Origin: Odiellus spinosus
Lineage: Eukaryota > Arthropoda > Arachnida > Opiliones > Phalangiidae
Direction: 5' to 3'
DNA length: 64,000 bases
NCBI GenBank assembly: GCA_963920705.1
Contig: OY987236.1
Span: forward strand, 12,076,190-12,140,189
Shown here in pieces: positions 5,872 to 52,040 of the stretch. Both the position numbers and the translations under genes were made by a program. Position 1 is the first letter of the stretch; every line of letters starts with the position of its first letter. Under the pieces are notes generated by a model. That model was not told the origin of the DNA, did not search any database, and was given only the letters and a program-made list of their open reading frames with translations.

Positions 5872-5876
5872 GATTA

Positions 5877-12470: not shown

Positions 12471-12559
12471 GTTAATTAAGTTTGTTTGTCCTTAATTAAT
12501 TTCTTTTAATTAGCTGTACAATAATTGTTCACAATATTTTGATATAAAATATTAACTAT

Positions 12560-14342: not shown

Positions 14343-14418
<76 letters not shown>

Positions 14419-15892
14419 TTATTTTTTAAAGTATAGAAAAGAGGTTAAATTACAGTGGCTGCTGATATTTCGACTGATTGAACTTCGCCTCCCATATCCT
14501 CCAGCTGAACTCCATTTGCGATTAGACCTTTCTTCGTGTATTCCTAGTAGAAATAAATTTAATATTATTAATTAAACTTAAAGTCCCTTTAACCACAATG
14601 ATCTTACTATATCGATCTTAGGTTTGTCAATTTTGTTAATCGCTACAATCATTGGAACTTTAGCATCATTTGCAAATTTAATGGACTCTACAGTCTGTTC
14701 CATGACTCCGTCATCAGCTGCCACCACTAAAACTACTATATCTGTAGCTTGTGCCCCCCTAGCTCGCATAGCCGAGAAAGCAGCGTGTCCTGGGGTGTCT
14801 AAAAAAGTTATACTGTTTCCATTTGGAAGTTTCACTGCAATAAAATAACATTTCTGATTTTTTGTATATATTTATGTTATTTTTCTTTAATCGACAGTAA
14901 AAATCACCAGAAAAGGCTCCGATATGTTGGGTTATTCCTCCAAATTCTTCTTTAACAACAGATGTTTTTCGTAAAGAATCCAACAATGTAGTTTTGCCAT
15001 GATCTACATGACCCATTATCGTAACCACGGGTGGTCTCTTTATCATGTCCTTAGGGTCTGCTGGTGATCTATCATGATGAGTCAGTAAGTTAATCAGTGG
15101 CCTGGTTTTGATTATGACGTTATTACCGTTTCACAGCATCTTTGTTAACAATTGATTCAAATTTTTCTGTACCAGGGGCATTAACTAATTGACACCTGAA
15201 ACCCAATTTTTTTCCAATTTCATGAATTGCCTTTAAATCATCAATTTCTGAAAGCAGTGTTCATTAATGAGATGCTAGATTTTTGGATATTGGACGGTGT
15301 AAGAACTCAAACAAATAGTTTTAAGTATAGTTAAATTCTACAATGTATTTATCAGGTGTCATGATTCGCTCTTTACATATAAGTTATTTGTTTGAATTAT
15401 ACTCTAAACTTGGTGTTTTACTGGAGTTCTTATTATCATAGTTCTCTGTGTTTTGTACATAAATCATTGCTTCAAATACGTCATCTGAGAAGATGGAAAT
15501 TCATTAGTTAAAAGTATGTAGACAAAATTGGATTTAGTTTTTACCTAAACTCCTATTACTGGTTTTAGCAAGGTCAGCAACTGTCATATTGCGCCAAATT
15601 TTAATAGTCTTTGCCTTTGGTTTGATTTTTTCTATGATTTTTGGCTATACACGAGCTAATTACCTTTAATCACATTATTTAACAAATAAATAGAGAATAG
15701 AAATACCTTTTTCTTCACCATACATTTGGCATTTGTAATAGATAGATATCGTTTATATACAGAAGAATGGCTTGAATTTGGAAGAATATGTGTTGGGAAG
15801 GTCCTGCATGCAACACTTTGCTGAATAACTATTTTTCTAAATAATTTACTGTAATTTCTAAAAGTATTTATTATGTTCGCAGCTTTTATCAT
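12560..15892 (-). CDS. mIF2: Mitochondrial translation initiation factor IF-2
   Basis: Thirteen exons on the minus strand (first 15892-15707, then 15644-15545, 15484-15422, 15247-15127, 15068-14908, 14834-14608, 14543-14454, 14324-14200, 14073-13869, 13806-13437, 13162-12998, 12940-12800, last 12732-12560) sum to 2127 nt, 708 residues, close to vertebrate MTIF2. The start is rich in basic and hydroxylated residues and lacks acids, as expected for a mitochondrial presequence. The GTPase motifs are intact: GHVDHGKT (176-183), DTPGH (223-227), NKID (277-280). Domains II, III ([10 protein letters not shown]) and the C-terminal initiator-tRNA-binding domain follow. IF-2 is a GTPase that places fMet-tRNA on the mitochondrial small ribosomal subunit. 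The stop lies only 89 bp from the convergent Symplekin stop, so the 3' UTRs must nearly touch or overlap. Confidence 0.95.
14347..14414. repeat. AT dinucleotide microsatellite
   Basis: An uninterrupted run of about 34 TA/AT dinucleotides sits in the intron between mIF2 exons 7 and 8. Confidence 0.95.
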
Positions 15893-16382
15893 TTTAGATT
15901 ACTGTTATAAAATTAAATTATATTCATATTTACTATTTTGAAGGTTTTTAAGTTTGTTTACGATTGCACCAGGCTTTTTAAAAAAGCACGTGGATTACTT
16001 GCAGTAAAGCTTGCAGACGAATTTTAAACATGATAAATTTCATTGGATGATTCAACCGGAAAACCTCCCGGGTAAAAAGAAGACCGGGCTCTACATCCGG
16101 TTATTTCAACCAATCGTGTTCATTTTTAGTATTTTTCAGTTGTGTTTTGAATGGAGCTCGTATTCCGTATTTACGTTAAATTAAAAGATAATGGCAATTA
16201 AAAAATAACGTGATTGTGTGTTAAATATCATCAATTACTACGAAAAGAATACTAATATCATAAGGTAAGTTCTTTTTTGTCTTATATAAAAGTTTTCAAG
16301 AAGCTATGGCAAAAGATTAGAGTATGTCAAAGTATAGGGCCTTGGTCTTGAAAGTAAAGAATAATCGCGGAAGTTGGCAACA
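15893..16382. promoter_or_regulatory. Divergent promoter region mIF2 / tetraspanin
   Basis: The 490 bp separate the start codons of two divergently transcribed genes, so both promoters must lie here unless leaders are longer. A good splice donor (ataag/gtaagttc, near 16264) suggests a non-coding first exon of the tetraspanin transcript. No specific factor site stands out. Confidence 0.4.
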
Positions 16383-17318
16383 ATGCTGTCATTACGGTCG
16401 TTTAAAATGTGGACTAGAACTTTTATCGTCCTGAATATTTTTAATTTACTCGTCGGAGTTGTACTGTTGTTTTTAGTAATGTATTACGTAGTTTATTTAT
16501 TGGATCATTGGTTTCCTTTCGTTGGGGATAAGTACACTGACAAGAAATATTTGTATGCCCTCCTTTTTATGCCTATATCAGTCATGTTTGTATTAGCATT
16601 GTTCAACATATCTGTATCAGTAATGCGTTTGAATATGTATCAAACAAACGTGTCAGAAATAAGCACCAAAAGACGGTATTTTTGGGTTGTTCCCGTAGCT
16701 GTTGCTATTATCGTTATAAGTTCTTGCTTAGTTACTATCTTCTACACGTTGCGAAAAGACAAACTCTATAGTTCCTCTGAAGAAGGGTTGCTGTTGGCTA
16801 TCAAAAGCTATCCACGGGGTAATCAGAAATATAAGTCCTCTTTGGACCGACTACAAATTGCTTGGCAATGTTGTGGATTGAATGATTATCAAGAATTTCC
16901 CGAGTATGTTTTTGAAAAACTAATAACTCCAATTTTAGCAAAAAAATTGTAAAATATATCCTTCCCAGGTTGAATGGTGGTGTAGCTTTCAGTTGTTGCA
17001 AAAGTTCATTCATGGGTCCTTGTACCAAACCAATTTCACCTAAATCTATCCATTCGCTTGGTTGTTTATCATATTTTTTAAAATACTTTGATAGTATGGT
17101 TATGTATCATATTGTACTATCATGGTTTGTCTCCACCTATCATGTAAGTGTTAAGGGCCCGGGTAACTATCACTGAGTTAAAAAGGGGCTATTTTGAACA
17201 GATTTTGATCCTAGTAATCTCGATTTGCCTACAAGCTGCTTTAAATCGTCATAAAATTGTTTTCAAAAGTATCCCTTTGGTTGAAGGTGAAAACATTGAA
17301 CTATTGGATATGAAATGA
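16383..17318 (+). CDS. Peripherin/ROM-like tetraspanin
   Basis: Three exons, 16383-16903, 16969-17143 and 17202-17318, sum to 813 nt and 270 residues. Three hydrophobic segments lie in exon 1 (about residues 12-40, 58-85 and 95-122) and a fourth spans the exon 2/3 junction, giving the four-pass tetraspanin topology. The large extracellular loop holds CCG (163-165), then GVAFSCCKSSFMGPC and a further GC, a cysteine layout like vertebrate peripherin-2 and ROM-1 rather than CD-type tetraspanins. Known relatives organise membrane microdomains or photoreceptor disc rims; the role here is unknown. An upstream in-frame TTG codon is open, but the first ATG is at 16383. The short cytosolic tail (about 30 residues) has no recognisable signal. 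It converges on legumain with 69 bp between stops. Confidence 0.85.
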
Positions 17319-17387
17319 TTCAAATGAATATACTAAAAAAAAAACTTTATTTTTGGCAATCACACAATCTGGGGGTGATAAATAACA

Positions 17388-20300
17388 TTATATAATTCCA
17401 AAAACTGGTGGATGTACGCAAACTTCATCCATGGCTTCTTTGATGGTTACAACAGGGATCTTATCTTCGCACATGTTAACCAAAGTGTAGAGTTGACGCA
17501 AGGCATAGGCATTCTATGTAAACCAAAATTTATTTTGTAAACTCAATGTACTATATAAAATGAAAAAATTCCAATATACCTTAGAGAGGCTGAAACATTC
17601 TTGATTAAAGTATTGACGAACTTCATCGTAGCATTCAAAATCTTTCAACTGGTGTCGTTTGTTCAATAAATGAGCTTGGTTTGATCCACCAGTTGCGTAG
17701 GTTAGAATTCCAACCACTTTGTTGGTTAGGAAAACACGGTTCTATATGATAGAAATACATTTTAGAGCTCTTTGTTATGGTGTCATGTAATCAGTCGCTA
17801 GGAAAAAAAAAATACCCTGATCATCTTTTTGATTTGCTTTTGTAAAGATTGTTGTTGTTGGGGAGTCTTGGCTCGCAGAAGCTTCTGTTGAAGAATGGCC
17901 AATGGTACGTCTGGGCTTGGAACAACATCCATCTATAATTTGGTGCGTGACCATAAATCCAAACATTAGTAACTCTCTAGGTACATAGTCTTCCTATATT
18001 TTACCTGAACTTTAGGAGGGATAAAAACATTGGCTGCTGGCTTCTGACCCTGGAACTCGCTAACGTGCAATTTTCCAATACTCAAGTCTCCAAATTCTTG
18101 AACATGGCTAGTGTTAGTTTCTTTTCGAACGATTTGGAATTGTTTTTGAAGAGTCTCCGATTGTAAATTCTCCTATATAATCATAAGTCATTATTTTCGC
18201 AACAAATCTTGAGAGCTTTGTTTTTAAACTTGAAAACTCTTCACTGTGACTGATTATTACTGATACCTTATCAGAATCTTCCATCCAATTTACGCTGTAG
18301 ACATCTCCTAAATAAGTTCCTCGTTCCTCATCGTAATAGCAAGCGTAGGAGGATTCCTCGCCGTTAGCAGCCGTCGTAGCAAAAACTGAGTAAAAATTAC
18401 GCGTTAGTTTTTTGACTTTGTTCTCTTACTTTACTTGGCAAGCAAAAAAAATTACCGTTGATGTTATTGGGTAAAATGTTTTCAAAGATAGAACCAGATT
18501 CGCAGGCTTCAATGTAAACCACCAACTAGTATAATTCAAAAATGTTATTTAAAGCTAGCCCACATGCATCCTAAAATTTTACTGGCTTAAAATACTGAAG
18601 ACTAATTTTAAACACAATTAAAGCACCTAGCGGCAACCCTGTGAAACTCATCTCTGATACTTGCCAAAGGCAGGAACTAATGGGATCTGCCTTTGGCAAA
18701 GTAAATGAATTGTGTAACCGAGAAGGGACTTATGAATGAAACCAGAAGGTCATAATTAAAACTTCTGATGAAACTTAAAATTTCATAGGAGAATAAAGTC
18801 GCATTCAAATATAGTGGCAGGGCTGCAAGAGGTCCTATAAAATCCTATATTTTTTGAAAGTGTACTATATAGTCCTATAGTTTTACAAATAGTCCTATAA
18901 AATCCTATAATTTTGGACAAAATCTGCAAATTTTCTGAACTATGGCTATGAGGCCAATTAATCTGGGTGGTTCTATTCCGTTTAAAATAGTATCATTTTT
19001 TAGGATAACCCTTGTTTGTATAGTAAGTCTTCAGATTAAATTCAATGATTTGTTTTAGGTTTTAGTTAAGTTCTCCTCTGTCTCGTCTTGTGATTATAAT
19101 CCTGAAGAATTTAGTTCATTTTGAATAGTTCAAATTTACGGAGAATCTTAACACACGGCGAGACATACGAGATTATATGCCACAATTTAAACCTAATGAT
19201 TATGAAAATTAATTAAATTTAGGTTTATTTAAAACTGATTTAAAATTGACCATAATATCTGAATTAAAAAAAGGAAGCACTGGAAAAACTAAGTTAAATA
19301 ATCAAAATGGCCTAAATTCTTGAGGAATCTAAGCACACGACAAGACAGAGGAGATATTAAACTTAAATTTAAGCCTAATCGTCATTAAATTTAATCAAAA
19401 TTAAACGCTTTTATAGTTAATAAAAAAAAAGATGTTAGACAGTATGACGAAGATATTATTTTCACATTAACTATAAACGCGTTTAATTTTGATTGAATTT
19501 AATGATGATTAGGTTTAAATTGTAGTTTCATCTGGTGATTAGATTCCTCAAGAATTTAGTCCATTTTGATTATTTAACTTAGTTTATGCAGTAATTTCTT
19601 TCTTAATTCAGGTGTTTTTGTCAATTTTTAAATCAGTTTTAAATCGACTTAATTTTGATTCATTTTTATAATGATTAGGTTTAAATTGTAGTATAAGATT
19701 TTGTCTGTCTCGTCGTGCATTAACATTCCCCGTAATTTGACTCCAAACTTATTAGACAGTATGACCAAAATATTAACTTTTAGTAACCTTTTTCGAAGAA
19801 AGTAACTTGTAGTAGAAATAGCAACTTAGTATCAATTAAATCTATTAAAATTTACTCATTATTTTTCTACCATCTTGAGTTTACTTATGGTATAAAACTA
19901 GCGAAATATGATTAACTGTCCTATATAATCCAATAATTTTGCCAGAGGAATCCTAATTTTTCCTATTAAAATTTTCTTGATGAAGTGTAAATTGGGATGG
20001 CACGTGGGCTTTAGGAAAATTAAGGGTTTTGGAAAACAATATACCTTTTTGTACATGTTTTTCTTGTGCATAAAAGTAATAGCGTCATTCAAATCCTTGG
20101 CAGACAGTTCCTATTAAACAAAAACCAATTTAGCTACCTTGAAGTTGGCTGTAATTTTAAGTTTGCGTTGATTTTACTTACACTTGATGGAAAACCAAGA
20201 ATACCTGGAGCTCCATGATCGGCAAAGAAAACGAAAACATTGTCGTTGGGTCCACTTTTTAATACTTTGCCACTGCCAACTCCTTTCAATCCTTGTTCGT

Positions 20301-21027
20301 CTCCTTTCAAAACTTTGATGAAGTTTTCTGGAGTGACATCCTTTGATTTGGAGATAAAAATATTAAAAACCATTATAAAATAAAGAGTATAATCAGAAGT
20401 TAATAATTATATCAATGATATAATTATTAACTTCAGGTATAATTTTCTTTTAAACCTCTTTTGTGTAATCCTTAACAACACCTTTGTAGACATCCTTGCC
20501 CTTTGGGTGGTTAATAAGGATACCTGGGGTCGGATTCCTGAAAGTTTATAAGGTTTAGAATCAGGCCACATCACAAATTAAAATTTATTACGGTTGATCT
20601 CAGATTTTTTTCAACTTACTCAGGGTCTTGAGCCAAATCGTCATACATCAAAACAATGATTCGCTCATCAGGGATTCTAAAATAACAAAAAAATGTTTAT
20701 AGTTTTAACAATTGGATAAAACTTTTAGAGAAACAAACATACCCATGTTGGTGCAAAATTTGATAAGCGTGACAAACATCAGCCTAAAAAGTTCTCAGGG
20801 TTAAAGCTAAACTCACTGTGATTTTTTTTTTTAAATGATATTACCTGATGTCTGTAATTGTAATAATAGTTCGAACCGGCAACCAAAACGGCCCATATAT
20901 TGGTTGCATTGCTCGATACCTCATTAAGCTGTTGTTGCGCGTAAACTTGTTTTAGAAAGTCTTCGGGCAAGGCAAAAGCAGAGAGGCAACAAAGTGCCAA
21001 AACTGATACTATCACGGCGGAGTTCAT
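17388..21027 (-). CDS. LGMN: Legumain (asparaginyl endopeptidase, family C13)
   Basis: Twelve exons (21027-20845, 20783-20743, 20676-20620, 20537-20456, 20340-20182, 20110-20045, 18525-18456, 18385-18267, 18172-18005, 17932-17816, 17741-17580, 17513-17388) sum to 1350 nt, 449 residues; human legumain is 433. The start at 21027 gives a signal peptide ([19 protein letters not shown]). The catalytic dyad is visible: His163 in FADHGAPG and Cys204 in EACESGS, 41 residues apart as in human His148/Cys189. Other family landmarks are [34 protein letters not shown] and the C-terminal prodomain with its paired cysteines. The enzyme cleaves after Asn in acidic compartments or the gut lumen. It shows no sign of inactivation. 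The intron between exons 6 and 7 is 1.5 kb and full of repeats; the others are mostly short. Confidence 0.95.
18832..18925 (+). repeat. TCCTATA-rich repeat in legumain intron 6
   Basis: Six or so copies of tcctata and its variants occur within 95 bp. It is the reverse-complement relative of the ATAGGA-rich repeat at 2330-2815, with a further trace near 19918-19965. Confidence 0.45.
19139..19735. mobile_element. Long palindromic (foldback) element in legumain intron 6
   Basis: Two arms of about 290 bp are inverted copies around a centre near 19440. Examples are gttaaataatcaaaatgg (about 19293) against ccattttgattatttaac (about 19562), and aattaaacgcttttatagtt (about 19399) against aactataaacgcgtttaatt (about 19470). 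It has no coding content. Terminal motifs and target duplication are not clear. Confidence 0.7.
20396..20434. repeat. Perfect 16-bp hairpin in legumain intron 4
   Basis: gaagttaataattata and its exact complement flank a 7-base loop. It lies in the short intron between legumain exons 5 and 4 on the genomic map. AT-rich cruciform-prone sequence; a function is not implied. Confidence 0.8.
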
Positions 21028-21812
21028 CTTTCTGAAGTATAGGCTACGCAAATGAGGCGTAAACTAATTTGAAACCTCGATTGCAAAGGCCTTTATACTT
21101 AAAGATAAAATTATTCTTAATTTAGTATCTTATCACATGATGTTACAGTAACTGATAGTGAACCACTTAATAAGCAGTCACCAACGCAGTTCGTTGATCA
21201 TTTTTGAGGAATTGAAATGATATTGCTAGGAATGAGAGTCGTTAGGTAAGGGTGATCCTTAGAAAATTCGCCTTCTCCATGCTTTGAACGTGTTACTTCA
21301 ATGAATTTAGGATATATGAGGGAAAAAACAAAATATTGGTTTCTAAGAATTAAAAGTCATGCATCACATCAGATCACATGCATCCCCTTAAATCAATTAT
21401 CATCATAGATACAATGAAATGTTAAATGAACAATATCTAAACTTAGAAAGGTCATATGCCCCTCCTTTTCAACAAAAAAAAAAAAATGTTCTCGGTTTTG
21501 TCTTAAATTTTGAAAGCTTAGCACATTATCTGTGATTAGAAATACCCCGATCATTAAAGTTTTTTCATTGTTAAGAACAATGTTCCCATTATTGAATATT
21601 TTAAAACTAAAATCTTCATGGGAATTTTAACTGGAAGGGTTGGGCTGGTTGCATCATTTCATTTTAAAACTTCCTTTGGGTATAATCTAACCAACCCTCA
21701 AAAAGGAACGCAGAGCCCAATCTGGTTTTATGCCCTGAAATTAATACTAGGAGCTGCAGGGCAATTCTCTCAGTTTTCGGTAATTTTCGTAATAAACTTT
21801 TATAACTATCAC

Positions 21813-21858
21813 CATGAATTTATACATCCCACATAAATGTGGGATGTATAAATTCATG
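21813..21858. repeat. Perfect 21-bp-arm palindrome
   Basis: Arms 21813-21833 and 21838-21858 are exact complements around the loop taaa (core catgaatttatacatccc). Perfect arms this long in diverging intergenic DNA suggest recent origin or gene conversion. Confidence 0.9.
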
Positions 21859-23407
21859 CTATCACTTATTCAAAAGGTACTAACTTAGAGTGAGCCTGGC
21901 CAGCTCATAAACTCTGTTCATGACCCTGTGTATCACGAGTAGTCCTCAGGAAATCTGAACACAAAGGGGTTGTAATTTGGATATGCAGTTCTGGAGCATA
22001 GTCAAAAGTTATCTGCCACAAAATTTCGCATTTAAAAATACCTGATGCTTGCAGGTTTTCCCTGACAATCTTTGAATTTTTTCCATGACCAAATGATTAT
22101 ACAATTATTATTTTTTCTTCCGTGACAACATCTGGCACAGGCTATCTTTAAAGAATACCAAGTTTCGTGCTACAATTCCATAAGTTTTACAGCCGTTTTA
22201 AAATTACATCACCTTTTGGCCCAATTTTCAAATTTCCAGGATTTCTGACCTATACGCAACCTCGTTATAATTTGACCTTGAATGCCTTTGATGGTATAAA
22301 ATTGGCCCTGCCCCTGCATAGCCAAATTATGACCCCTTCAGGGTAGTTTTTTAGGCCAGGGAGAAAAGTCTGGGTGATTTAGAATTTCTCGCCATTCCCA
22401 TATCATTTTTTCTTTCCGAATTAGAAAGTACAATTGACCAAATATGATCTCTCTAGTGATTCTTGAAACATGATGCAACTAGCCCTTTATTTAAGGGGTT
22501 TTGAATACACACCCTATATCTCTTAAATTTGATGGCGCTTATTCTAATGCTCTGTCAAAATTTAGTTGAGATGTATTGTGCTCACAATGTCAGTGGGAAT
22601 TCGCCTTTAGACTAAAAACCACATGATTAATTTTTTTTTTTTTTTTTATTAACTAAAGACCAAAATTTATTTAGCGTACAAGAAAATCTGCGACCATTTT
22701 TACAGCGTGATTATTTAAGGAGCCACGCGCAGGTAAAGCCCAAGGGGTTTGAACATTTATAATACTGCAGTGAATGTTATAAAAATTTTACATTAAAAAG
22801 GAGTATAGAACTTAAATTTTGATTTGAGAATGTACGAGCTACTGCGTTCCTTAATCTTTTCTATAACCAACATATTGACTAGAAAATAACACCTAGTTTA
22901 GACTAAATTTTTAACAAATCATTGCACAAAAAATGGTAGGATAAATTACCAAAATGAGGGTGTTCCAGTTGTAAAATAATACATTATTTACATTTATATT
23001 TTACAATTTTAATTTTGAATTCAATGGAGCATGAAGTAATTAAACAAGTTGATTTTGATAGATTGTGCTAAGAAATATAACAATAAAACTTTCCAAAACA
23101 TGGTATTTTAATGAAAAAAAAAAAAAAAAAAAAGAGAAATTCTAGTTTTAAACACGCATGCATGATTAGCATTATTAAACCAATTGCAAAAAGTTTCTCA
23201 AAGAAACTCTTCTGACCTAATATTTGATATTTCAAACATTATCAAATTCTGGTAAGTTTAACTGTTATCTTTTGACTTCTCTTATCAAAGAAATAAAAGT
23301 AGCGTGTTATTACTTCATGCTCACTTTAAAGGGCAAGTGTTAGAAACAAAAATTAGGGAATGGTGTCATTCTTCCTTTACAATTCAGGAGATACAAAAAC
23401 GTCACTG

Positions 23408-23628
23408 TAAAGCCGTGTTTTCAATCAGCTCTTCAAGCTCTTCCGTTCTGAAAGAGAAGCTTATATCAAATTCATTTGGATATAGACTTCTCGGTCATTT
23501 AAAGCTGGTTATCTTCATTTTTATGCAAAAGCTTGATTCAAGCGTCATTTTTGTTTGTATGCAAAAACTTTATTCAAGCTTCATCTTTGATTCTTGCGCA
23601 TCAAATCTTGATTGAAAAAGTGGCTTTA
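23408..23628. mobile_element. MITE with TAAAGCC..GTTTTCAATCA termini, copy 1
   Basis: It begins taaagccgtgttttcaatca and ends cttgattgaaaaagtggctt, inverted copies, 221 bp apart. The same termini bound elements at 43926-44459 and 62153-62272. The 103-codon open frame that overlaps it is not conserved between copies and is not a gene. Confidence 0.7.
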
Positions 23629-24279
23629 CGTGTCTTTAATCCGGTTTTATGACTTGATCTTGGATGAGTATGTAATATTTATACTCATCAAAGACTTGAT
23701 AATGTTTTTATTTTTAATTATTATTTTCAATAAATTCTTAGAGAATAAGATTTTTCTTCCTCTTGACATATATTTTATTCTTTTCATTTAAAGTAAATTA
23801 TATTTTCTGATTTTTGGGAATTTTATTAAAAAATGTGATACTTGCCCTTTTATAAAACGCTGCATCCAGAAAAAAAAAAACATTAAAACCAAAACTGATC
23901 TTCCAAGTTATTCTTAATAATTTATAATATTTACAAGACAGTTTGATAGCCCATATATAACTGGTTGTGATTTGAAACACACTCTCTCAAACACAAGTGC
24001 ATTTTTTATTATTTTTTACATCTACGCGTTATTTAATACCAGGAAAATCCTGATAAATCTTCTTGTTTTTCTTGAAACTGGTTTTCTTTCATACTTTTAT
24101 ATATGAAATTTACACTAAAAATCTTCTTGGTTTAAAATCTCTTTTAATTTTGCCTCGAATAAGTTATTTAAATAACTTAAATCATTAATTAATCTAATTA
24201 AAATCATATTGCTCGTCTAATTTCAAATAATCTCTGTCAAAGGGTGGGGTAGAACTTTTTAAATATTACTTTCTCTTAA

Positions 24280-27187
24280 TTAGTCTTTTCGGTCTTTGTC
24301 AGCTTCTTGATATGTCGGAAAATTAATAGGATCTATTTTTTCAATAACTTTGTACGAAGGATATAATCCTGATTTGTGAGTCCGTCTGTTAACGCCTTTC
24401 GAATACCCATCCCAATGGTTTCCGGCTATACCAATGACATCTCCCGCATTCATTTCAATCTCGATACTTCGACGGGGTTGATGATTGTACGCCGCTATTT
24501 GATTGTGATCCTTTTGACCTCCAAAATAAAATATATCATCCAAGGATTGATACCAACTCGAAGCGTCTGGGTGCATCGTTTGCATTATTTCGTAGGAGAC
24601 TCTGCAAACCTGCAAAAATATAAAACTTATCATTTATAACTCCGGTGAAATAGTTTTTAGTTAAATAGGGCTTTGAACACTCCATAATTTCCTTGTCGAG
24701 TATTTCAGCTCAAGCAGACTCGCCAGAGCTAAGATTAATAAAGAAGCTGTTTTCTGGATATATCTCTCGTACCAACATTAGTTAAATTATTAAAACACAC
24801 GACGCAGACACTAAGTAATAAAAAATCTCAAGTGCCACCGTTAATTTTTATAATTAGAATTTAGGCGGATTCTAACACGTGGTCGTCTAACTTGATATAT
24901 TGGTCCTAGAATGAAAAGTTAGTCGCGCACCATTTTCTGAAAGAGTAATATATCCAGGAAGCCTTAGCTTCTTTGTAACTGGAATAGGAAAGGGTCAAAA
25001 ACTGAAAGAGATTTAATCCAACACCAGACAGAGTTGGGAAAACTGACTAATTTTTACGGATGTAATCAGGCTTGGCTGTACTAAATACACGCGTCAATAC
25101 TAAAGATAGGCCTTAGTCAATTTTAAATACACTCATCCAATTATTAGCTGGTATTTTGACTTTTTCCTTAGTAGTTGACTACATTTAATTCTGCTAGACC
25201 TTCTCAACTTTTTAAATGTTCAATTAAAGCAAGAAACTGTCAAGTTTTAAAATTTAATAGTAATATTTAACCTAGACTTTGCAAGTTTCAATAAAATAAC
25301 TATGAAGTAACTAAATTAATGGAATAGAGAAGATAATGACTCAACAAGTTACTCGCCCAGTCCTAATTATAAGACCAAGTGATCATAAAATTACAGATAC
25401 CTGTGAAGAAAATGTGCAAACTAGATAATCGCATTGCGCTAGCATTTGAATATCAAAGATGACTCCTTTGAGGGAACTTGAAGAGTATCGATTTGAAACT
25501 GAGGCACTCTTGGCTATGTTAGGGTCTCCAATAAATACATAATCAGGGTATCTAATGGAAAAATTGAGTATTAGACAGAAGCAATCATCTAAAGGCAGCG
25601 TTATGATTAATTAGTACTTTTTTCGAGCCTCTTCTAAGACATTTGGATCATCTGTAGCCAAATAAACTCTTCTAGCATCCACACTTTTCTTTAGACCAAG
25701 TTCTAATTTCTTGTAATACTCTTCCACAAATTCCATGTATTCGCTCAATGCGTGAAATGAGGCCTCTGTGCCTATTTTGTCTGTTCTTCGAACGTGTATC
25801 CTATGAAATATATTATTTATTAATGATCGACAATTAAATCTCAGTAGTTAATTGCTATATTACCCCACTATAGGTTTTTTAAAGTTCAACTTCTTTTCAG
25901 AATCATGAAGAAAGTCTTTGAGCTCTTTTTGAGGACGCAAAAGATACTGCACGAATTGTCCTATCCACCAAGCTCCGGGATTACCATGCAATCGAACCAA
26001 ACGTTCGTAAAGATCTTTAGGAATATCCAAAGGTAAATATATTGGTTTTGGTTTAACGTTATCTACTATGGGGAGATCGATGACTTGAACTTTATCAGAA
26101 CCTACATATGTAAAAGTTCAAATTTAGGTTTAAAACTTAATAAGCCAAAGAGATATAGCTAGCATACCAGGCCAACTCTCGCGAGGAGTTCCCGAATCAA
26201 CTGTGCAAGTCTCACTTAGAGGTTGGAATACCGATTCCCAACCATTTCGAGCGTATCTCCAGTTTTTCGAATGTAAAATTAGAGTTCTTTGAGTACCATA
26301 TGCCACAATCAGACAATAAACCACGTGATGTAGTTGACACCCATACCCGCATCCTTTGTTGAGGTTGCAAACTAGCTTTTTAGCTTTATTGCAATCTTTA
26401 GGGTTCTACATAACATTGGGTAGAATTAATTTCAATTATTGGAAGGAAACTTTGTTAGATTATCATACCTGTAAATGCAATATTCTATTTTGAACTATGG
26501 CACCCAATTCCTTCATTTCTTTTTGACGCCAAGCTTTCATGCCATCTAAATCTTTTAAATGTTCCAGATCTAATTGAATTACTCTAATGGATTAATAGTA
26601 TTAAGTTAATGACTATTAGATTAATTTAAAACTTCATGAAGTAGTATACCGTTTGTGGTCAGTACAATCTTCGAGCATATTTGTAAGAGTTCGCATAGCT
26701 TCCGCATTTCCAATCAAGCTTTTATTAAGGCCCTTCAATTCAGACCGTACGAAATACCAAAGCTCCTGAACTCCTCTTTCTACGTTTCTCCTTGTTTCTT
26801 CAAAATCTAAGGACGGTTCTTTGGCCGAGACCAAAGCGGTAGATTCTTTACTGGCACCACCCACATTTTTAGAACCTTCTTTAGATCTACTTTCCGATAT
26901 TGCTGGAGATCTTGAACAAAAATTGGATATGGTCAGGAAGATCTAGTTATATACTAACATTTTTTTTAAGGTCATATTTACTTTAAAGACGTCAGTAAAG
27001 CATGTAACTCCTCGTTTTGTTGCTTCAAAGCTTCAAGCTCATTTACTGCTCTCGTTAATCTAGCTAATAATTGTTCATCCGGTTCATTACCGTGAAAAAG
27101 TGGACCGCTAAGCAGAATTATCACCGCTAACCATACTAATAATAATACTAGCACTATTTTTCCTATGCTTAAACTCATTTTTGACAT
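24280..27187 (-). CDS. FUT8: Alpha-1,6-fucosyltransferase (core fucosylation)
   Basis: Eight exons (27187-26982, 26910-26650, 26583-26469, 26405-26168, 26101-25864, 25800-25618, 25551-25401, 24609-24280) sum to 1722 nt, 573 residues; human FUT8 is 575. Residues about 8-29 form the single signal-anchor of a type II Golgi protein, followed by a coiled-coil stem rich in E, L and Q. The donor-binding motif HVRRTDK is at 355-361; Arg357 and Arg358 match the essential Arg365/Arg366 of human FUT8. The last exon encodes the C-terminal SH3 domain ([17 protein letters not shown], about 500-520) typical of this enzyme alone among fucosyltransferases. The enzyme transfers fucose from GDP-fucose to the innermost GlcNAc of N-glycans. 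All key residues seen are intact. Confidence 0.95.
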
Positions 27188-27249
27188 TGTTTAAATATTA
27201 ACACAGGCAATGAGCATAGAGGTGCATTAGTTACCGCTGTTTACTTCCT

Positions 27250-27836
27250 GACCAAGGCCTAGCTGTAAAAACTGTTTTGTAAGATTCTCGACTAAAATAA
27301 AAGCATTAATTTATAATAAAATCATCTAAAACCCCGTAAACAACTTTCGAATCTTTTAATAATTTAAAACTAATCTTTTAATTATTTACTAATAATACTC
27401 TTTATGACGAAGAAAAACGTCACCCAACTTCCATTTTAAAATTTAATGACTCCTTTCAATAAAAGACAACCTAGGTGGCAGTAGTAGACAAATTTTATAA
27501 AACTAGGCGCTAAATTCAAATTAAGCTGGTTTTATTTTCTCTTGGCAAAGGCCTGGTTGTAAACTACCTGTCAACAATAAAATGTTAATTTATAATAAAT
27601 TCATCTAAAACCCTGCTATCAACTTCTAATTCGAATTCTTTCATAGTTTAAAATTAAATATTTAGTTATTAAGTGTTTACTAATACTGTATTCTTTATAC
27701 CAAAGAAAAACATCACCCAACTTCCCTTTTAAAATTAATGACTTTTTCAATAATAGAACCACCTAGGTTTAGTAGTAAGAAATTTTGAAAGAACGAGCTG
27801 CCAAAATCAAATTAAGGCGATTTTATTTTTTATAAG
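27250..27836. repeat. Direct duplication of about 293 bp between FUT8 and MCM5
   Basis: Two diverged copies lie in tandem, roughly 27250-27542 and 27543-27836. Shared landmarks include aaggcctagctgtaaa/aaggcctggttgtaaa, ttaatttataataaa, tcatctaaaaccc, gaagaaaaacgtcacccaac/aaagaaaaacatcacccaac and a closing gattttatttt. No open frame. The copies fill most of the 695 bp between the FUT8 start codon and the MCM5 stop codon. Confidence 0.8.
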
Positions 27837-27882
27837 GGTAATATAATAATATAAGAAAACAATTAATGCTCATAGTTGTACA

Positions 27883-30078
27883 TTACTTAACACGGTACAA
27901 TAATTTTCTTTGCAAGCGATATTGCATTTCACCACGTCTCATCATGAAATGCAAAACTTTGCGAACAGCATGATCTGGATAGTTTTGTTTTACAAAGGAC
28001 TGAATGATGGTTTGCTCAGAAACTTGGGTTCCAATAGCGAATCGTTGCTTGAGTTGTTTCTCGATTCTTTGAAACAACTGGTGTTCTTCTTCTGTCGTAA
28101 ATCCTTCAGCTCCGGACAAATTTCCTGACATAGCCGCTTCTAAAGTTGAAACTTGGAACAATCGCAAAGCTTCGTCAACATGGACTTCTGTAGCAAAGGC
28201 TTTAAGTTGCATCTTGGCCAAACTTTCAGATATTCTTATTACCGCTTCTAATTGTCGCACAGTAATTGGAATGGATGACCTCTTTTCAGTCTCCAATTCG
28301 TGTTCCCTGGTGCCATTTCTCATCAAAACATAGCGATTCTTGAGTTTTTCTCCAGCTTCAGGGTTTAATCGTGGTCCACATTTACGGCGGCAATAAGCAA
28401 TGTACTTTTGTAGCAATTTGATTGACAATTCTCCTTCAGCCAATTCTTCATTAGTTAACAAAGCATTCATGTGAACATTCATGATATGTTTCGCCAGAGT
28501 TTTATCCCTGTTTTCGTCGTGTTCATCTTTTACAATGAAAATCATATCAAATCGGGATAAAATTGTGGGCATGAAATCAATATTTTCCTCCATCTTACTA
28601 TCATCCCATCTACCAAAAACGCTGTTGGCTGCGGCTAAAACTGAACATCTGGAATTCAAAGTAGTTGTGATACCAGCTTTGGCGATTGAGATAGTTTGTT
28701 GTTCCATGGCTTCATGGATGGCTACTCTATCATCTTCCCTCATTTTGTCAAATTCATCAATGCAAACTACTCCTCCATCAGCCAAAACCATAGCTCCTCC
28801 TTCAACAACAAAATTTCTGGTTACAGGATCTTTGATGACTGAAGCTGTCAAACCGGCAGCGCTGCTTCCTTTTCCAGAAGTGTATATGCCAATAGGTGAA
28901 ACTTTCTCTACAAATTTCAAAAGTTGACTCTTGGCTGTACCAGGATCTCCTAACAGCAACATATTGATATCCCCTCTTCTCGTTAAACCATCTGGAAGAC
29001 GTTTTCTTGATCCACCGAATAATAGAGCTACAATCGCTTTCTTGATGTCTACGCTTCCGTAGATTGAAGGAGCAATACTGTTGGTGATGCGTTCGTATAT
29101 ATTGGGACTGTTAGCTAAATTCCTTAGCATCTCTTCTTCTTCCGTTGAAAATGTGAAAGAGGCAGTTCGACCAGAACCATCTATATCCACGTGTATTCCA
29201 ACTACTCTTAGATAAGGTTTTCTGATTCCAGCATTGGCATTGTCTCCCCCTCCTCTGTTACTGCCAGCCATCTTTTTAATAGAATAGATACCGATGATGG
29301 TGACTCGATTGCCAGGTACCACTCTTTCGCAAATAAACCTATCACAGTAAAGTTGTAGATGCCGTGGCATTTCTCCATGGGGTACATCTTCAGGAGCTTC
29401 TTGTAACTTTAGCATTTGAAAATCCACGCATTTGCATTTGTCTGGGATCACGAAAAACGGATCTATGGGGCATCTTGGTTGATTTGGTTGATCAGTGTTG
29501 CATTTCCTGGGTAAAGCGTAACCTTCCAAACCAGGCTTGACAGCGATATTGGGGATTGATTCTCTGCAGTTTCTACATTGAATGGTAATTCTAGTGGCCT
29601 TGGATCGAATTCCAGAAGCGGAAATGATGATTCCAGGAATTTTAACGAGTTTAGAGACTTGATCCGACTTTAAATCTCTAAGATGCATTGGATTAGCATC
29701 AGATGTTAAAATAATTTGAATGTCTTCCATCTCTTCTTCACCTTCAGGCCGGGGCCTAGTTATTTCATCAGCAACTTCTCTAGCCGCTTCTTCAAACAAT
29801 GGGAGATGTTCAGTTGGTAGTTTGTTTAATTTATCTGCCAGAGTTTCATCAAAACTACTCAAATCATCAATTGAAACTTCTAGCCAGTATTGACCCAAAT
29901 TATAATGATGTTTCAGTTGATCACGATATCGATATTGAAAATTTCCTTCATGAAATTGACGGATAAAATCTTTGAATCTCCTTTTAACAGCTTGCAATGT
30001 TGCATGATCTTCAACCTGGTTTGGATTATCCCCAAAGTTATCACTAAAGAAAACACCAGGATCATCAAATCCAGCCAT
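27883..30078 (-). CDS. Mcm5: DNA replication licensing factor MCM5
   Basis: A single uninterrupted 731-codon frame, full length against the 734 residues of human MCM5. The N-terminal half carries the zinc-binding region (CRNC with a second CKC pair). The AAA+ core shows the MCM-type Walker A GDPGTAKS (about residue 380), Walker B with CIDEFDKM, and the arginine finger in LSRFD. The C-terminus ends with the winged-helix region ([16 protein letters not shown]). MCM5 is one of six subunits of the MCM2-7 helicase loaded at origins in G1. The start at 30078 is preceded by an in-frame-free poly-A tract and matches the family N-terminus ([16 protein letters not shown]). It lacks introns, unlike every other multi-kilobase gene here. 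Two E2F-type sites lie 165-210 bp upstream. Confidence 0.98.
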
Positions 30079-30243
30079 GTTCTAGAAAAAAAAAAAAAAA
30101 AAATTATATAATGTTGCTAAAGCCATCTTAAATTTGAAATAATTACAATATTCTAAAATTATATTTAATTCCACCAACGCACAGACAGAATAATCTTTGG
30201 TTCCTTTTCCGAAGTTTACACTAAACTCAAACAAAAGAAACTT

Positions 30244-30255
30244 TATGGCGGGAAA
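30244..30255. promoter_or_regulatory. E2F-type site (proximal) of MCM5
   Basis: The sequence tatggcgggaaa differs by one base from the E2F core form at 30276. It lies about 165 bp upstream of the MCM5 start codon. MCM genes are classic E2F targets in animals, so the call rests on both motif and context. Confidence 0.7.
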
Positions 30256-30275
30256 CGTGTGTTAAAGGGCAGCAC

Positions 30276-30287
30276 TTTGGCGGGAAA
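30276..30287. promoter_or_regulatory. E2F consensus site (distal) of MCM5
   Basis: tttggcgggaaa is a canonical E2F/DP binding site. It is 32 bp from the first site, about three helical turns, in the same orientation. This suggests G1/S-linked expression of MCM5. Confidence 0.78.
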
Positions 30288-30633
30288 CTTTCAGCCAATC
30301 AGGGAAATTTGTCCCTTTAATTTTTTTATTCTTTTTTTTTTCATATTTTTCTCTTGTTTTAGTTTAAATCAAAAATAATCCACAAATTTTAGTTATATTT
30401 CTGATGTTTCATATATTATTTATTTTTATTTAATTGCTTTAAAAATTTTACTCAAAAACAATCAATTTTTGAAGGTCAGGAAAGGACAGACATAGTCGAT
30501 TTTTCCTCTTCCTTATGACCTTATCTCTTTCGCGTCAGCTTTCGTCGAGTACAGTTCGTGTTATAACACCGGCTTCTTTAGGAGTACTAATTGTATTCAA
30601 GTCTTTTGCCGTCAATATATTAATATAATAGAA

Positions 30634-32230
30634 ATGGTGAGCTATGTAACATTTTCATTACATATTACTTACAAATTAATCGTTACTTGCATCAAAATTA
30701 GTTTATTTGTGATAGAAAACATCTAGAAAAATTTCGCTTAGGCTTGGTTAGGCTTAGTGTAAAAGAATGGGGCTGCTATAAAAATGTCACATCACACCAG
30801 GATATTAGAGGAATTAGTTTTTGGCCGCGGAACTAAATTCCAAAGTCTATTAATAAATCAAAAAATTATTCACAGGCCGAACCTGTAAGAGTATTAGTAA
30901 CTGGCGCAGCTGGACAAATTGCCTACTCTTTGCTCTTTTCCATTTCCAAAGGGGATGTCTTTGGTCCTGATCAGGTATATAGCTATTTAACATTTTTTTT
31001 GGTTTTTTGGTAAGTGAAAAAATTAAGTTTTTTTTTTTTGTAGCCAATCATCCTTCATTTGTTGGATATTCCCCCCATGATGGGAGTCTTGGAAGGTGTT
31101 GTTATGGAGTTGATGGACTGCGCTTTTCCCCTTCTTCGCGATGTTGTTCCAACTTCCGACGAAAAAACTGCCTTTACCGATATTGAATCAGCTTTTCTAG
31201 TCGGGGCAATGCCCCGAAAGGAAGGTATGGAAAGGAAGGATCTATTGGCTGCAAATGTCAAGATTTTCAAAAGCCAAGGAAAAGCCCTTGACCAATATGC
31301 CAAGAAGACTGTAAAAGTTTTGGTTGTCGGAAATCCAGCTAACACTAATGCTCTAATCTGCAGCAAATATGCCCCATCAATTCCCAAAACTAATTTCTCC
31401 GCCATGACTCGTTTAGATCAGAATCGTGCTCAAGCCCAAGTACGTGTATAGTTTTTAAAACTGGATTTTTATTCACTTTGCAGACTAAACAATTGAACAA
31501 TATTTAGATTGCAAAACGAGTGGGTGTTCCTGTCAATAATGTTTCCAACGTTATCATTTGGGGAAATCATTCTTCAACCCAATTCCCTGATATTAGCCAC
31601 GCTACTGTTGTAGCTGCTGGAGCTACTCATAAAGCGACTGATGCTGTAAAAGATGATGCTTATTTGCAAGGAGAATTCATTTCTGTAAATTTTTCTTATT
31701 TATAATTCTCAATTGCAGTCATAGAAAGTATTCAGTTTCTGGTAATTTTCTGTATGAAATATCTCTTCTGAGATTGCAATAAAATAACTAGTAAAAGACT
31801 AGGATCTGAAATATAACTGCAGATTTTTATTTTTATTTTTTATTTAGACTGTGCAAAAGCGAGGCGCTGCTGTTATCGCTGCCAGAAAACTTTCATCCGC
31901 CATGTCAGCTGCTAAAGCAGCTTCTGACCACATGAAAGAGTAATTATTTGCTAACTTTTATTTTAAATAGTGTTTTTAAATTAAAATTTAAATAGTTGGT
32001 GGCAAGGAACCGCTGAAGGTCGTTGGGTTTCAATGGCAGTTATCTCTGATGGATCTTACGGTGTAGCTGCTGACGTCATGTACAGTTTCCCTGTTCAAGT
32101 GGGATCGGATCGTAACTGGAGTATTGTTCAAGGATTGGAAATCAGTGATTTTGCCCGGGAAAAGTTAGACTTGACAAGCCAGGAATTAATCGCCGAACGA
32201 GAGGAAGCTCTCAGCGTTTGCCAAGATTGA
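30634..32230 (+). CDS. Mdh1: Cytosolic malate dehydrogenase
   Basis: Six coding exons (30634-30636, 30876-30974, 31044-31439, 31508-31684, 31848-31939, 31996-32230) sum to 1002 nt, 333 residues; human MDH1 is 334. The first coding exon is only the ATG. Next comes the NAD-binding turn GAAGQI (11-16). The substrate loop contains [13 protein letters not shown]; the catalytic pair is Asp159 (in TRLDQNRA) and His187 (in GNHSST). The C-terminal part has [20 protein letters not shown]. It interconverts malate and oxaloacetate with NAD(H) in the cytosol, as part of the malate-aspartate shuttle. It lacks a targeting presequence, consistent with the cytosolic form. It is divergent from MCM5, with 555 bp between start codons. 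No anomalies seen. Confidence 0.97.
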
Positions 32231-34539: not shown

Positions 34540-37500
34540 ATGATCTTCAGTTCGAGTGACGTTTTAAGCGTAGGTCAGCTAAAAAGGCTGGCCGAACACA
34601 AATACAGCACTTCGGGTTCCACGTTGCTCGATCCGATTATGCAACCTTTTTGGAATTGGTTAGTTTTGAAATTCCCTATCTGGGTTGCCCCCAACTTAAT
34701 GACCATCGCCGGTCTCATCGTGAACATTATCACGTCCCTAATACTCGTATATTACAGTCCAGATGCTCGTCATAATGTAAGTACTTATTAATTTATTGAT
34801 TTTACTAAAGTTTCTGCTAGACTAGACTACGTGTCTTTTAAAACTAGGCTCCTTGGTGGACTTTCCTTCTTTGCGGACTTGGTTTGTTTATATATCAAAC
34901 ATTAGACGCCTTAGATGGTAAACAAGCTCGTAGAACGGGAAGCAGTTCCCCTTTGGGTGAGCTGTTTGATCATGGTTGTGACTCTGTATCTACAGGTAAT
35001 TTTGATAATTTGAAACCTTTTGAAATTGAGCATAAAACAAGACTTTTTTCCAGTTTTTGTTACGTTGGGTATCTGTATCGCCGTTCAACTTGGATCGTAC
35101 CCTTCCTTGATGTTTTTCCAGTGTTTCGCTACAATAAGTTTATTTTATTGCGCTCATTGGCAAACATATGTTTCAGGCACATTGAGATTTGGAAAGTAAG
35201 TTTTATTTTCAACTAGGTTTGACATAACTAAAAGTAATTTAAACCCGGTTAGATTTGATGTGACGGAGGTTCAGTTTTCTGTGATAGGTGTGCACCTTAT
35301 ATCAGCCATATTTGGGCCTTCATTTTGGAGCACGCAGGTAAATAAGAACATTTTTGAGAGATGTTGGTTTTAAAGTTTTTGATTTTTTTTATGGCTGAGT
35401 TTATAATTACAATTAACGTATTTTTTTTATTATTTGCAAGAAGATTATTCTTAGTTCATTAAATCTTAATCAAGTAAATTTTTCTAACAATTGCGCGATA
35501 GATTCCCTTTATTAACTTGGAGCTCAGATTTGTTCCATTCATTGGCCAAGTCATTGGTTCGACTGTTGCCTTGTGCAGTTATTGCTCAGTTATATTTACA
35601 GGTGGAGCTGGAAAAAATGGCTCTACCGTAGCTGTAAGTGGATAAGTTAACCCACTCTAGAGCCACAGAGTTCGAGAGCCAATGCTTTTGCCGCCGCTTT
35701 ATTAACAAATGCAAAAATATTACCATTAAATAGGTTTATCCCCGCTTAAATCCTATATATTTATTTGCTTATGGTTGAGGTTATACTAACGCTTTTTATG
35801 AGAAATTATTTGAAATAACTATTTTTAGATAAAGGGTGAATGAAGTCTGATAGTTATTTTTATGTATTCCTTACTTCAAAAGTATGCGTATTTTCTGAGT
35901 GTTGCTTTTTTGTGTGTACCGTAAAACCTTGTTATAACTAAACGTGCTGTGACGAAATATCGCTCATAACTAAATTTTTGGAATTCCATGCGGTATCATC
36001 TGCAAATATGATTAAAATAAATTTAGGCCTATTTTTTAATTCTTGTCAGACTTCATTCTACCTTGAAGATGGGTGTTGGTTGCAAAATACTTTAGATCTA
36101 TCAAAATTTTAAACAAACTGCTTTTTTCTCTTCCCTATTTTTCTCGTTTCTGTTTCGAACATGTTGCAAAAAATTGTTCTTTGATGATCTCCCCAAAAAC
36201 AAAATCACAACTCCGTAGATTCCTTTTTTACATGTGGAATTCCGGCTTATGCCAGTGGTGTTGGCTCTGTCCGTCACTTTCTTAATGTGCTACAATTACA
36301 TAGCGGTCATTCTGAGCGGGGGTGTGGGCAAAAATGGCTCGACTGTGGCCGTAAGTTTTAATATTTACGCAGTGGGCGCGACTCTTTTTATTGCTCAAAT
36401 CATTTTAGAACCAATTAGGTTTGAACTTTTATCTAATAATCTTTTCTCCCCTGGACCAATGATGACTTTTGTAGGGCACAAGCGTATTATCACCTTTTAT
36501 TCCGATGGGACTAGTTGTATTACCCGCGTTTATAATTTACCAGAAATCAAAATTTAACGTATACGAGAACCATCCGTGCCTCTACATTTTGGCATTTGGC
36601 TTTGTGGCAGCTAAAGTCACTAATCGTTTAGTCGTAAGTAATATAGTAATAGTAGCCTAAATTCATCTTTAATCGTAAATTTCTTATTGTTTAGATCGCT
36701 CACATGACAAAAAGCGAAATGAGCTACCTCGATTCTGTACTGGTTGGTCCTGGTATGCTCTTTTTGAACCAGTACTTCAATTTTTTTATCCCAGAATACG
36801 CTGTATTGTGGTTGTGTCTGGTAGGTTTCCTTAATACGAATACGGGCTGAGAGAGTACTGATTTCAATCGAGTACCAAGTTGTACTCAATTTGTTGTTTT
36901 CTACTCAATAAGAATTTTGAGGAACTTTCAAAGTCTTAAACAGTAGTTATTTATATTTTTTTTATGCTTAAAGGCCCTATCTGCTCCGAAACTTGCCCCT
37001 TCAAAATGCTCTTCCCTTACGCACGCAACCTAGCTTTGACTGTACAATTTGTTTTGTACAACGTCGTCTGCTAAGCTAGAAAAGGAGGCGACTTTAACGG
37101 AGATTTGAAAATCGCAGATAGTCCCTTTAAAATGGGTTTTTCATATGATAGTATCACTTACAATGAAATTTGGTTATATCGAAAATATTGCTTGTAGCGT
37201 AACATTTTGCCTCTTATTTTGTTGTATCCAGTTTAGGACTAGTTTTAGCAGATAAACTCTGGTTTTAACGAAATTTCACTTAACATTTACCTTTTCTATA
37301 TATCGAATTATAATTAAGCCTATTTCGGGCCTTGTCTTAGCAGACGAACTCTCATTATACTATAATCTTGAAAGAGAAAAGTAGAATGGAATGGAAAACA
37401 GTGTATATTTACTGGCATACATAGTGGTTAACCAGGGCCCAGTCTTTTAGTGCCTTCTTGTAGATGAAAAAACCAATAAGCTCTGCTGTGTAATAAGTTG

Positions 37501-40500
37501 ATTGCAATCACGGAATAGATGGCTCTACAACCTTAGACTCTAGTAGTAAAATACACTGCCGAATGCTGATCATGACCCACCCTTTTACCTCTCCAGAATC
37601 ACAAAAAATACCTCTTAAAGTGAAAATTATTTTTCCTTGTAACCATTGACCGTCCGTGACCCATCACTGTCGTCTGCAAAGCCAACAACATTAAGATTTA
37701 ACAAAACAGATTCGTTTTCCCTTAGAATTTCTTTATAACTAGGATTGTTTTACTGTATTGAATGATTTGAAAAGTCACTCTGAACTTAAATTTAAACTTA
37801 AATATTTAACCAAGGCCCAACTACTCTACTGGAGAACGAATAGTGGACTCTGTACTCGATAATGAAATATTTTGGCAGTACTGTCCCACTTCTTATCAGT
37901 TATCAAGCATTGAATAATTTTGGTCATTTCCAGGTTTACGCTGGAGCTGATTTACTGCATTACTGCTTCATAGTGTGTAATCAAATATGTTACCATCTTA
38001 ATATTCATTTGTTTAAAATCACGCCAAAATCGGCCACGGCGGCATCCAAATCGGAAACAATACCTATAAACTCTCCTCGAGTGGCCAACGTATTGAACAC
38101 ATCAAATGGTATGAACAAGAGAATGAATCGTTCTCATAAACGCTGATTTATTTTTGCCAAGCCCTAACCTACCAATTTTTTAGCGATAGGCCTATTTTTA
38201 CTACTAGTACCTTAAAGAGATTATTAGCTATCTCTTTTTTTTACGAGTCTGAATGACTTTAATATCTCAGTTTCTCAAATCGTGAATGAAAAACTTGAGA
38301 TATTAATTTAAAAATTTTAATTCTGTTCTAAATATCTAACTCAGTTTTTCATCTAAAAGTTTCATTTCTGGTGCTAATTTAACTTGGGTTTGCTTAAGTT
38401 AAAAACTTACGAAACTTTAATACCAGTTAAAACATTTAATTAACAAGGTAAAATTTTGGGGGAGACTTTTTTAACACATTAAGAGATTAGACTGAAGTGT
38501 TTCAGTCAGTAAATAAAAAATAACAAGACTCAGAGTTTTTAACGCTACAATTTGATAATTGGTTTTCTTAGAGAGATAAATGTTTTGTACGCGTTGAAAA
38601 CTCCAAAAATTATTCTATAAAGGCCACAATGTTCTAATTAATCCCGAGTAAATTATAATTAAAAGAAAGGTCTCATTTAAAATTTCATACTTGGTTAGCG
38701 AGAGATAAAAGTTCTTTAAAATGTCTTATGGATTCCGCTATTCCTCTCTATGTATTTCTGTTATTTAAGTCCCCTCACACACCCCTCCGCGTCCCTGTAA
38801 AAGATTCTTTGCCTTCTTAATTAATGAATCCATCAATAAAATATTGAAATTTCCACACAATCATTTTTAAAACTGGCCCTTAGCATTTTTTATCTTTGAA
38901 GATTCGTGAAAATTTTATTTATAGTCTGATTTTGAAGTTCTAGTCTATTTAGGGTTATTACTTATTAGAGTATTTGGGAGGGTACATTGTGAAGGAGAAG
39001 GGAAATATAGAACAGAGAGAGTCACCAAAAACGTGAATTTAAATGAAACCTTTCCTTTAATTTTAAGTATGTTATTTTTATTTAGTATTATTTGGTTAAA
39101 ATCCACCTTTTCCCATCTTTTGGGTCTCTTTAAATTAACCTAAATTTAACACAATTTTTTTTTTATTTAATCATTTAAAAATTAAATGATTTATTGTTCT
39201 TTTAATCACCCTTTGAGCCTTATTGCTGGCTTCTGAACAAAAATTAACTATGGGGAAACATTCTATATATATATTCGAAGCGAGTCACAAGTTATATAAA
39301 TAGAAAAATCACTTTAATTTGTGATTTAGATGAGTTAGGACTAAAATCACTAAATTATAGACAAATCTCGTGAAAATTGCAGTTAATGGCATATGCAGGA
39401 TATTTCTGAAAAACTCAATAAGAGTGTGAATTTATTCATATACAGCCATGACTAATATGGAACTAATAATATACATTCACCACCATTGCCAAAAAGAGGT
39501 TTATCGCTAAATCCCATCTTAAGAAAGCTAATTTGGAATGTGTTGGTGGTTGGTAGCTCAGTTGCTAAGAGCATGGGAGGTTTTCCTGGAGGTTGGTGGT
39601 TCAAATCCCGTGAGCTGTTGAGTTATCTTTTCACCTACGGATTCATCCTTAATGTTAATTCTCAATACCGTGAATGATCTATTCCCTCTTAACACTAATT
39701 ACAACCTATATTTGGCATTAAGGTAGGTTAGATTTGAATGTCCTTGCCCCCAAAACTAAGGTGTTATCCCTGTGGAAAAAATGCATGTTTTTCACAATGG
39801 GTTTAGCAGATGGCGTTTTGGTTGCGAATAGACTTTATTTCTATATAAATTGAGGATGGAAAACTGGTTTTGAGGATGAAGAAATAATTAAATTAGCAGG
39901 TTTAATCAGAATTAACTGAGATTTATTGAACCCTGAGAAGGCTATGTAAACCTCCGTAAAATTTGATTAATCCTGCTAATTACGGGTCTTTTGAAGAGGA
40001 TATTAGCATACCATGCAATACCCAGAGTAGGTTATGCCTCTCTTGTTTCCTAGCCCAACTGGGGTTGTGAAATAAGTAATATTATAGATTCATGAAAAAA
40101 ATGAGTCTCTTCTGAAGTTGCAAAAACTGGCAATCAGAGATATTTATTATTTAGTGACTCGCTGCGATTAATATTTTTATAATAACAAACTACTAACTAG
40201 GTAATTTCTTTTTCCTCCCCTCTGAACTACAAATTTTCCCATTAGAGGTTGAGTTTAATTACAAAAAATCAACGCAATAAGTTGTTTTAGGATGGGGACT
40301 ACTTGTATTTTAGTTCAGAGGGTGAAACTTAAAAAGTTCTAGAAACGCTTTGGTGATTGCATCTATGTGCCAAAAAATATAAAACTATTTGATTAATCCT
40401 TAAATTTAATCTTAAATTAACTTAACTATTTAGCTTTCTCGATTGAGTCTCGTGAATTTAATCCCCAAAGTTCCTGATATCTCTAACAAAAATCCCCGTA

Positions 40501-48356: not shown

Positions 48357-52040
<3,684 letters not shown>

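Follow-up and report, generated by a model that had tools for sequence, protein, structure and literature searches.

The alternative exons of insect Dscam1 and Mhc are adjacent, homologous and equal in length and phase. A study covering 269 cassette exons of 76 Drosophila genes called mutually exclusive pairs from transcript splicing graphs (PMC3303723), and bb in a boxcar (bbc, CG6016) is among 11 genes in which conserved motifs occur in one exon of the pair only (PMC3303723, 2012); the tissue patterns of these fly exon pairs are unknown, according to the same source. The product of bbc is a diacylglycerol cholinephosphotransferase (PMC7721134), and the gene has several isoforms that are maternally deposited (PMC5147784).

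Here we describe a gene of the arachnid Odiellus spinosus with a pair of exons arranged like those of Dscam1 and Mhc. It differs from those systems in having two copies only, in showing no standout docking or selector pairing, and in that the predicted swap concerns a membrane helix, transmembrane helix 6 (TM6), in an enzyme of lipid synthesis. The fly gene bbc has, by name, the same enzyme activity and mutually exclusive exons have been recorded for it as well, so the finding is less new than the initial annotation, which knew of no earlier description for CEPT1 in this lineage, had proposed. The bbc exons of that study may be other than the one encoding TM6, and neither the identity of those exons nor a TM6 swap is stated in the passages of PMC3303723 considered. 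We liken the two genes by name and literature, with no implication that their exon pairs are orthologous. No paper on a TM6 swap in CEPT1 was among the matches listed for open-licence PubMed Central, a scope within which absence from print is not established. PMC3228551, PMC6071210 and PMC3923563 do not mention 'bbc' in their main text, and PMC3019233 was rejected as a lead, as it concerns Disabled and uses 'BBC' to abbreviate a component.

Gene structure and identity of the enzyme

We found an eight-exon gene at positions 34540-38146 (+) of the window, the whole 64-kb stretch of DNA that was analysed, and one of its exons is present in two versions, E5a and E5b (Table 1). All eight introns of this CEPT1/CHPT1-type gene have GT-AG borders, and the choice of either E5a or E5b yields an open protein of 413 residues. 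Residues 9-372 of both isoforms align without gaps to residues 16-379 of the PDB chain 8gyw (E = 4.6e-154 for the E5a isoform and 5.4e-155 for the E5b isoform), which PDB names choline/ethanolaminephosphotransferase 1. Both isoforms match five PDB sequences, all named as members of the CEPT1/CHPT1 enzyme family; apart from 8gyw these are 8ero and 9uet and, more weakly, 8urt and 8ul9 (cholinephosphotransferase 1). We know of no duplicate of the TM6 exon in vertebrates. We take 8gyw to be the human and 8ero the Xenopus enzyme, an assignment that agrees with the structure papers PMC10156783 and PMC10182977.

Table 1. Exons of the Odiellus spinosus CEPT1/CHPT1-type gene and features of the introns around E5a and E5b (window coordinates)
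Feature	Position	Strand	Remarks
E1	34540..34776	+	start codon and first 79 codons
E2	34848..34995	+	carries CDP-alcohol phosphotransferase motif DALDGKQAR...GELFDHGCD
E3	35054..35195	+	coding exon
E4	35253..35337	+	ends WSTQ
E5a	35502..35633	+	alternative TM6 exon, 132 nt, phase 0
Intron between E5a and E5b	35634..36218	+	585 nt
Inverted repeat in intron between E5a and E5b	35832-35850 and 36046-36064		19 nt, 89% complementarity, 195 nt apart; 13-nt perfect part (35838, 36046)
AG-free zone before E5b acceptor	36096..36216	+	121 nt, possible distant branch point
E5b	36219..36350	+	alternative TM6 exon, 132 nt, phase 0
E6	36475..36633	+	begins GTSVLSP
E7	36695..36820	+	coding exon
E8	37934..38146	+	C-terminus and stop codon

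PF01066 is the sole Pfam family in both isoforms, and the signature of class II CDP-alcohol phosphotransferases, D1xxD2GxxAR...GExxDHxxD, is present in E2. The similarity to CEPT1/CHPT1 is full-length in both isoforms, TM7-10 included, and outside E5 the protein is identical to 8gyw at 201 of 320 residues. The assignment to CEPT1 in the initial annotation is thus borne out as CEPT1/CHPT1 type by the PDB matches (E ~1e-154), the Pfam family and the motif, and the prediction that the gene product is a choline/ethanolamine phosphotransferase of this type is well supported. Such an enzyme would produce phosphatidylcholine and/or phosphatidylethanolamine, with CDP-alcohol and diacylglycerol as substrates. 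That E5a and E5b stem instead from two copies of the gene, whether separate, overlapping or mis-assembled, is a reading to which we give hardly any weight, since all other exons of the gene are single within the window and the two lie in one series of introns and exons with matching phases.

Pfam neighbours of the gene span positions 12018-31451 and comprise a symplekin C-terminus at 12018, a translation GTPase at 14759 (-), a tetraspanin at 16365, a FUT8-type fucosyltransferase with SH3 at 24280 (-) and a malate/lactate dehydrogenase at 31044. The window also encodes an ankyrin protein, at 50469. An uninterrupted frame of 732 residues at 27883-30081 (-), with MCM domains and the MCM5 C-terminal domain, is apparently an intronless MCM5 gene. 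Tandem repeats occur at ~2911-5875 (+), with a period of ~530 bp and a self-identity of 91% between copies one period apart and of 74-76% between those separated by four to five periods, at 59935-60265 (29-bp unit, 11.6 copies) and at 63389-64000 (153/301-bp unit), the last reaching the end of the window. The frames at 4079-4468 and 4614-5018 are similar to each other and part of the ~530-bp array, the latter having no Pfam match. A stretch at ~39543-39620 (+) looks tRNA-like by eye (GGTAGCTCAGTTG...GGTTCAAATCCC) and is perhaps a tRNA-derived repeat; ARAGORN reported no tRNA in the window, and an Rfam scan of the window gave no matches.

An old pair of exons, both under selection

As the initial annotation had it, E5a and E5b are exactly 132 nt each and in phase 0 at the coordinates of Table 1; both begin IPF and end GKNGSTVA, 19 of their 44 residues are identical, and each joins in frame to WSTQ at the end of E4 (35337) and to GTSVLSP at the start of E6 (36475). 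The pair has an ungapped BLOSUM62 score of 97, where the best of 20,000 shuffles scored 24; with the shared ends removed, the score of the core (exon residues 4-36) was reached by 0 of 20,000 shuffles. Because shuffles never reach the observed score, the likeness is not due to chance, and the duplication of the exon is confirmed as real. A tblastn search of the whole window with E5a recovered E5b (E = 1.9e-9) besides E5a itself, and no other match was better than E = 1.0; there is thus no third copy of the exon within the 64 kb by this search.

The two exons share 67 of 132 nucleotides, with identity at 24, 32 and 11 of the 44 sites at codon positions 1, 2 and 3, respectively. Positions 1 and 2 taken together (56/88) are more conserved than position 3 (11/44; P = 3.8e-5 by Fisher's exact test), and different codons encode 13 of the 19 residues common to both exons. 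Third positions at chance in combination with a constrained protein indicate an old duplication with both copies under selection, and neither E5a nor E5b can have drifted freely for most of the time since. E5a shares 20, 20 and 18 of its 44 residues with 8gyw, 8ero and 9uet, and E5b shares 20, 23 and 22; the distance between the two exons is thus about that to the vertebrate enzymes, as would fit either a duplication of great age or a quicker pace of change afterwards.

These data bear on the proposal that one exon alone is spliced in and the other is an unused remnant. Such a remnant might be sought in E5b, whose acceptor is unusual and lacks a nearby pyrimidine tract, but we consider this improbable: free drift would not leave third codon positions saturated and positions 1 and 2 conserved, the GT-AG sites are intact at both exons, and both frames are open, as they were in 187 of 5000 random 132-mers of intron composition. 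E5a and E5b are adjacent homologous exons of equal length and phase, the form by which mutually exclusive pairs are recognised; retention of the duplicated exon for alternative use is well supported, and we infer that in Odiellus spinosus the two are mutually exclusive.

The exon on the structure of the enzyme

The model of 8gyw spans residues 28-407 (PMC10156783), which places the exon at residues 239-282 of human CEPT1; each version encodes TM6 and the loop GKNGSTVA, the loop being identical in both. The initial annotation had put the swapped helix next to the active-site region. This can be stated more sharply: the exon corresponds to TM6, which borders both the acyl-chain chamber and the lipid cleft, and the catalytic, CDP-binding motif sits outside it, in E2 (TM2-TM3). 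In human CEPT1, TM6 lines one side of the acyl-chain chamber and of the TM5/TM6 cleft, its residues C253 and T254 contact the acyl tails, and substitution of either cleft residue, S261 or Y265, reduces activity; the TM5 change V216A is reported to alter diacylglycerol use (all PMC10156783). Diacylglycerol enters through the TM5/TM6 cleft in the model of the same authors, according to whom a structure in complex with diacylglycerol is still needed (PMC10156783), and a TM5/TM6 entryway has likewise been proposed for Xenopus CHPT1, in which TM6 is loosely packed (PMC10182977).

Human CEPT1 (8gyw) and the CHPT1 chains (8ero, 9uet) match the protein end to end with either exon and have the same CDP-binding motif, but they differ from it in having one TM6 sequence per chain, with S261, where E5a has A and E5b has M. 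At positions 253, 254, 257, 258 and 261 (human CEPT1 numbering), E5a has G, Q, G, S and A, E5b has L, A, V, T and M, and 8gyw has C, T, G, T and S. Of these, 253, 254 and 261 are assigned to the chamber face from PMC10156783, and 257 and 258 by helix periodicity. The summed residue volume at the five positions is 442 for E5a and 674 for E5b, compared with 490-539 for the three PDB chains. Ser261 of 8gyw is absent from both exons and Tyr265 is kept in both; C262, N264 and V274 are further retained in E5b, and G257 in E5a. E5a is therefore nearer to the PDB chains by chamber-face volume and E5b by overall sequence (to the two CHPT1 chains), and as these two structural measures disagree we name neither exon as the ancestral form. 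On our reading, E5a would give an open-chamber and E5b a narrow-chamber form, and we infer from the positions of the exchanged residues that the swap may affect the choice of diacylglycerol.

Inclusion of both exons in one mRNA, giving an enzyme with a repeated TM6, would be tolerated by the reading frame: 132 is a multiple of three, both exons are in phase 0, the joined frame stays open, and frame alone equally permits neither exon. We nevertheless regard it as very improbable. The matched PDB chains have a single TM6 stretch without insertion, and as each exon supplies one transmembrane helix, including both or neither should, judging from the 10-TM structures, invert TM7-10, the dimerisation domain.

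The exons might also be mutually exclusive while the swap alters headgroup preference, cell location or protein partners and leaves diacylglycerol use as it is. Members of the family vary in headgroup preference and reside in ER or Golgi membranes (PMC10156783, PMC10182977), which speaks for this; we consider it unlikely, however, as the contacts to CDP and headgroup that are described lie outside TM6, and the TM6 contacts named in these papers are to the acyl tails and the cleft (PMC10156783, PMC10182977).

Splice sites and the choice between exons

The splice sites of both exons had initially been described as strong. This holds for the donors, both GTAAGT, and does not hold uniformly for the acceptors, in that the AG of E5b lacks an adjoining pyrimidine tract. 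The tract of this acceptor lies ~60-100 nt upstream of the exon, inside the AG-free zone of 121 nt (Table 1); the AG-free zones of the other seven introns measure 10-54 nt. A zone of at least 121 nt arose in 25 of 5000 shuffles, a frequency that should be read as a chance of roughly 0.04 because the zone was chosen after viewing 8 introns, and a gap as long occurs at 13 of the 3318 AGs in the window. Long AG-free zones mark distant branch points of alternatively spliced exons and have regulatory elements inside (PMC1431707); E5b resembles such exons in the long zone and in a pyrimidine tract toward its upstream end. This suggests that the zone marks a regulated acceptor. Control of E5b through it is the candidate that we judge likeliest as the mechanism of exclusivity, at somewhat under even odds.

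No clear device for exclusion was found in intron pairing, spacing or splice-site type. Steric exclusion as in tropomyosin (PMC1431707) was rejected because the putative E5b branch point is too far from the E5a donor: the intron is 585 nt long, and a branch point even near 36100 would lie >450 nt from that donor. Incompatibility of U2 and U12 sites was likewise rejected, both donors being GTAAGT and thus of the ordinary type. The three introns pair with one another no better than their shuffled versions (54, 57 and 18 of 100 shuffles were as good), and the same holds for the middle intron when its two halves are paired (17 of 100), so competing RNA structure between introns is unsupported as an exclusion device. 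The intron between E5a and E5b holds an inverted repeat (Table 1), whose 13-nt perfect part was equalled in 2 of 300 cases when that intron was shuffled and in 10 of 300 when the region was. Its 12-nt core occurs within the window at its two arms only, and a weaker complementarity (80% over 20 nt) to sequence past E5b overlaps its left arm. The repeat may form a regulatory hairpin or mark the termini of a small mobile element; as an element of exclusivity it serves as a lead only.

Search for animal relatives

Protein-guided scans for animal relatives returned 2 pattern matches in viral contigs and 64 in genome contigs, with no relatives in either. Degenerate DNA patterns gave 0 matches in viral and 0 in genome contigs; a further such pattern gave 2 matches in viral contigs, both rejected as chance (best tblastn E 0.19), and tblastn against plasmids was empty.

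Implications for phospholipid synthesis

Our preferred explanation, to which we assign a probability of roughly 0.55, is that E5a and E5b are a mutually exclusive pair that swaps a lipid-gate helix, with splicing tuning diacylglycerol use or lipid passage. The pair arose by an old tandem exon duplication, and each mRNA would carry one member. TM6 from the chosen exon would line the acyl-chain chamber and one side of the TM5/TM6 cleft, the presumed route for diacylglycerol and for the product phospholipid, and the side chains turned toward the chamber would be small or polar with E5a, bulkier and hydrophobic with E5b. Splice choice would then most likely tune either the diacylglycerol species used or the rate of lipid entry and exit, with the CDP-choline site untouched.

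More tentatively, and at a strength that leaves it no more than a possibility on the doubtful side, TM6 splicing may act as a regulated switch between diacylglycerol (acyl-chain) selectivities, with an open-chamber and a narrow-chamber phospholipid synthase made from a single gene, such that tissue, stage or temperature would set the acyl make-up of new membrane lipid. No comparable control point for the Kennedy pathway was among the matches listed for open-licence PubMed Central. The cleft indicated by PMC10156783 and PMC10182977 bears on how choline/ethanolamine phosphotransferases select diacylglycerol species, and a natural pair of enzymes differing solely in TM6 would test it directly; the exon pair would also show that splicing can set the lipid make-up of membranes.
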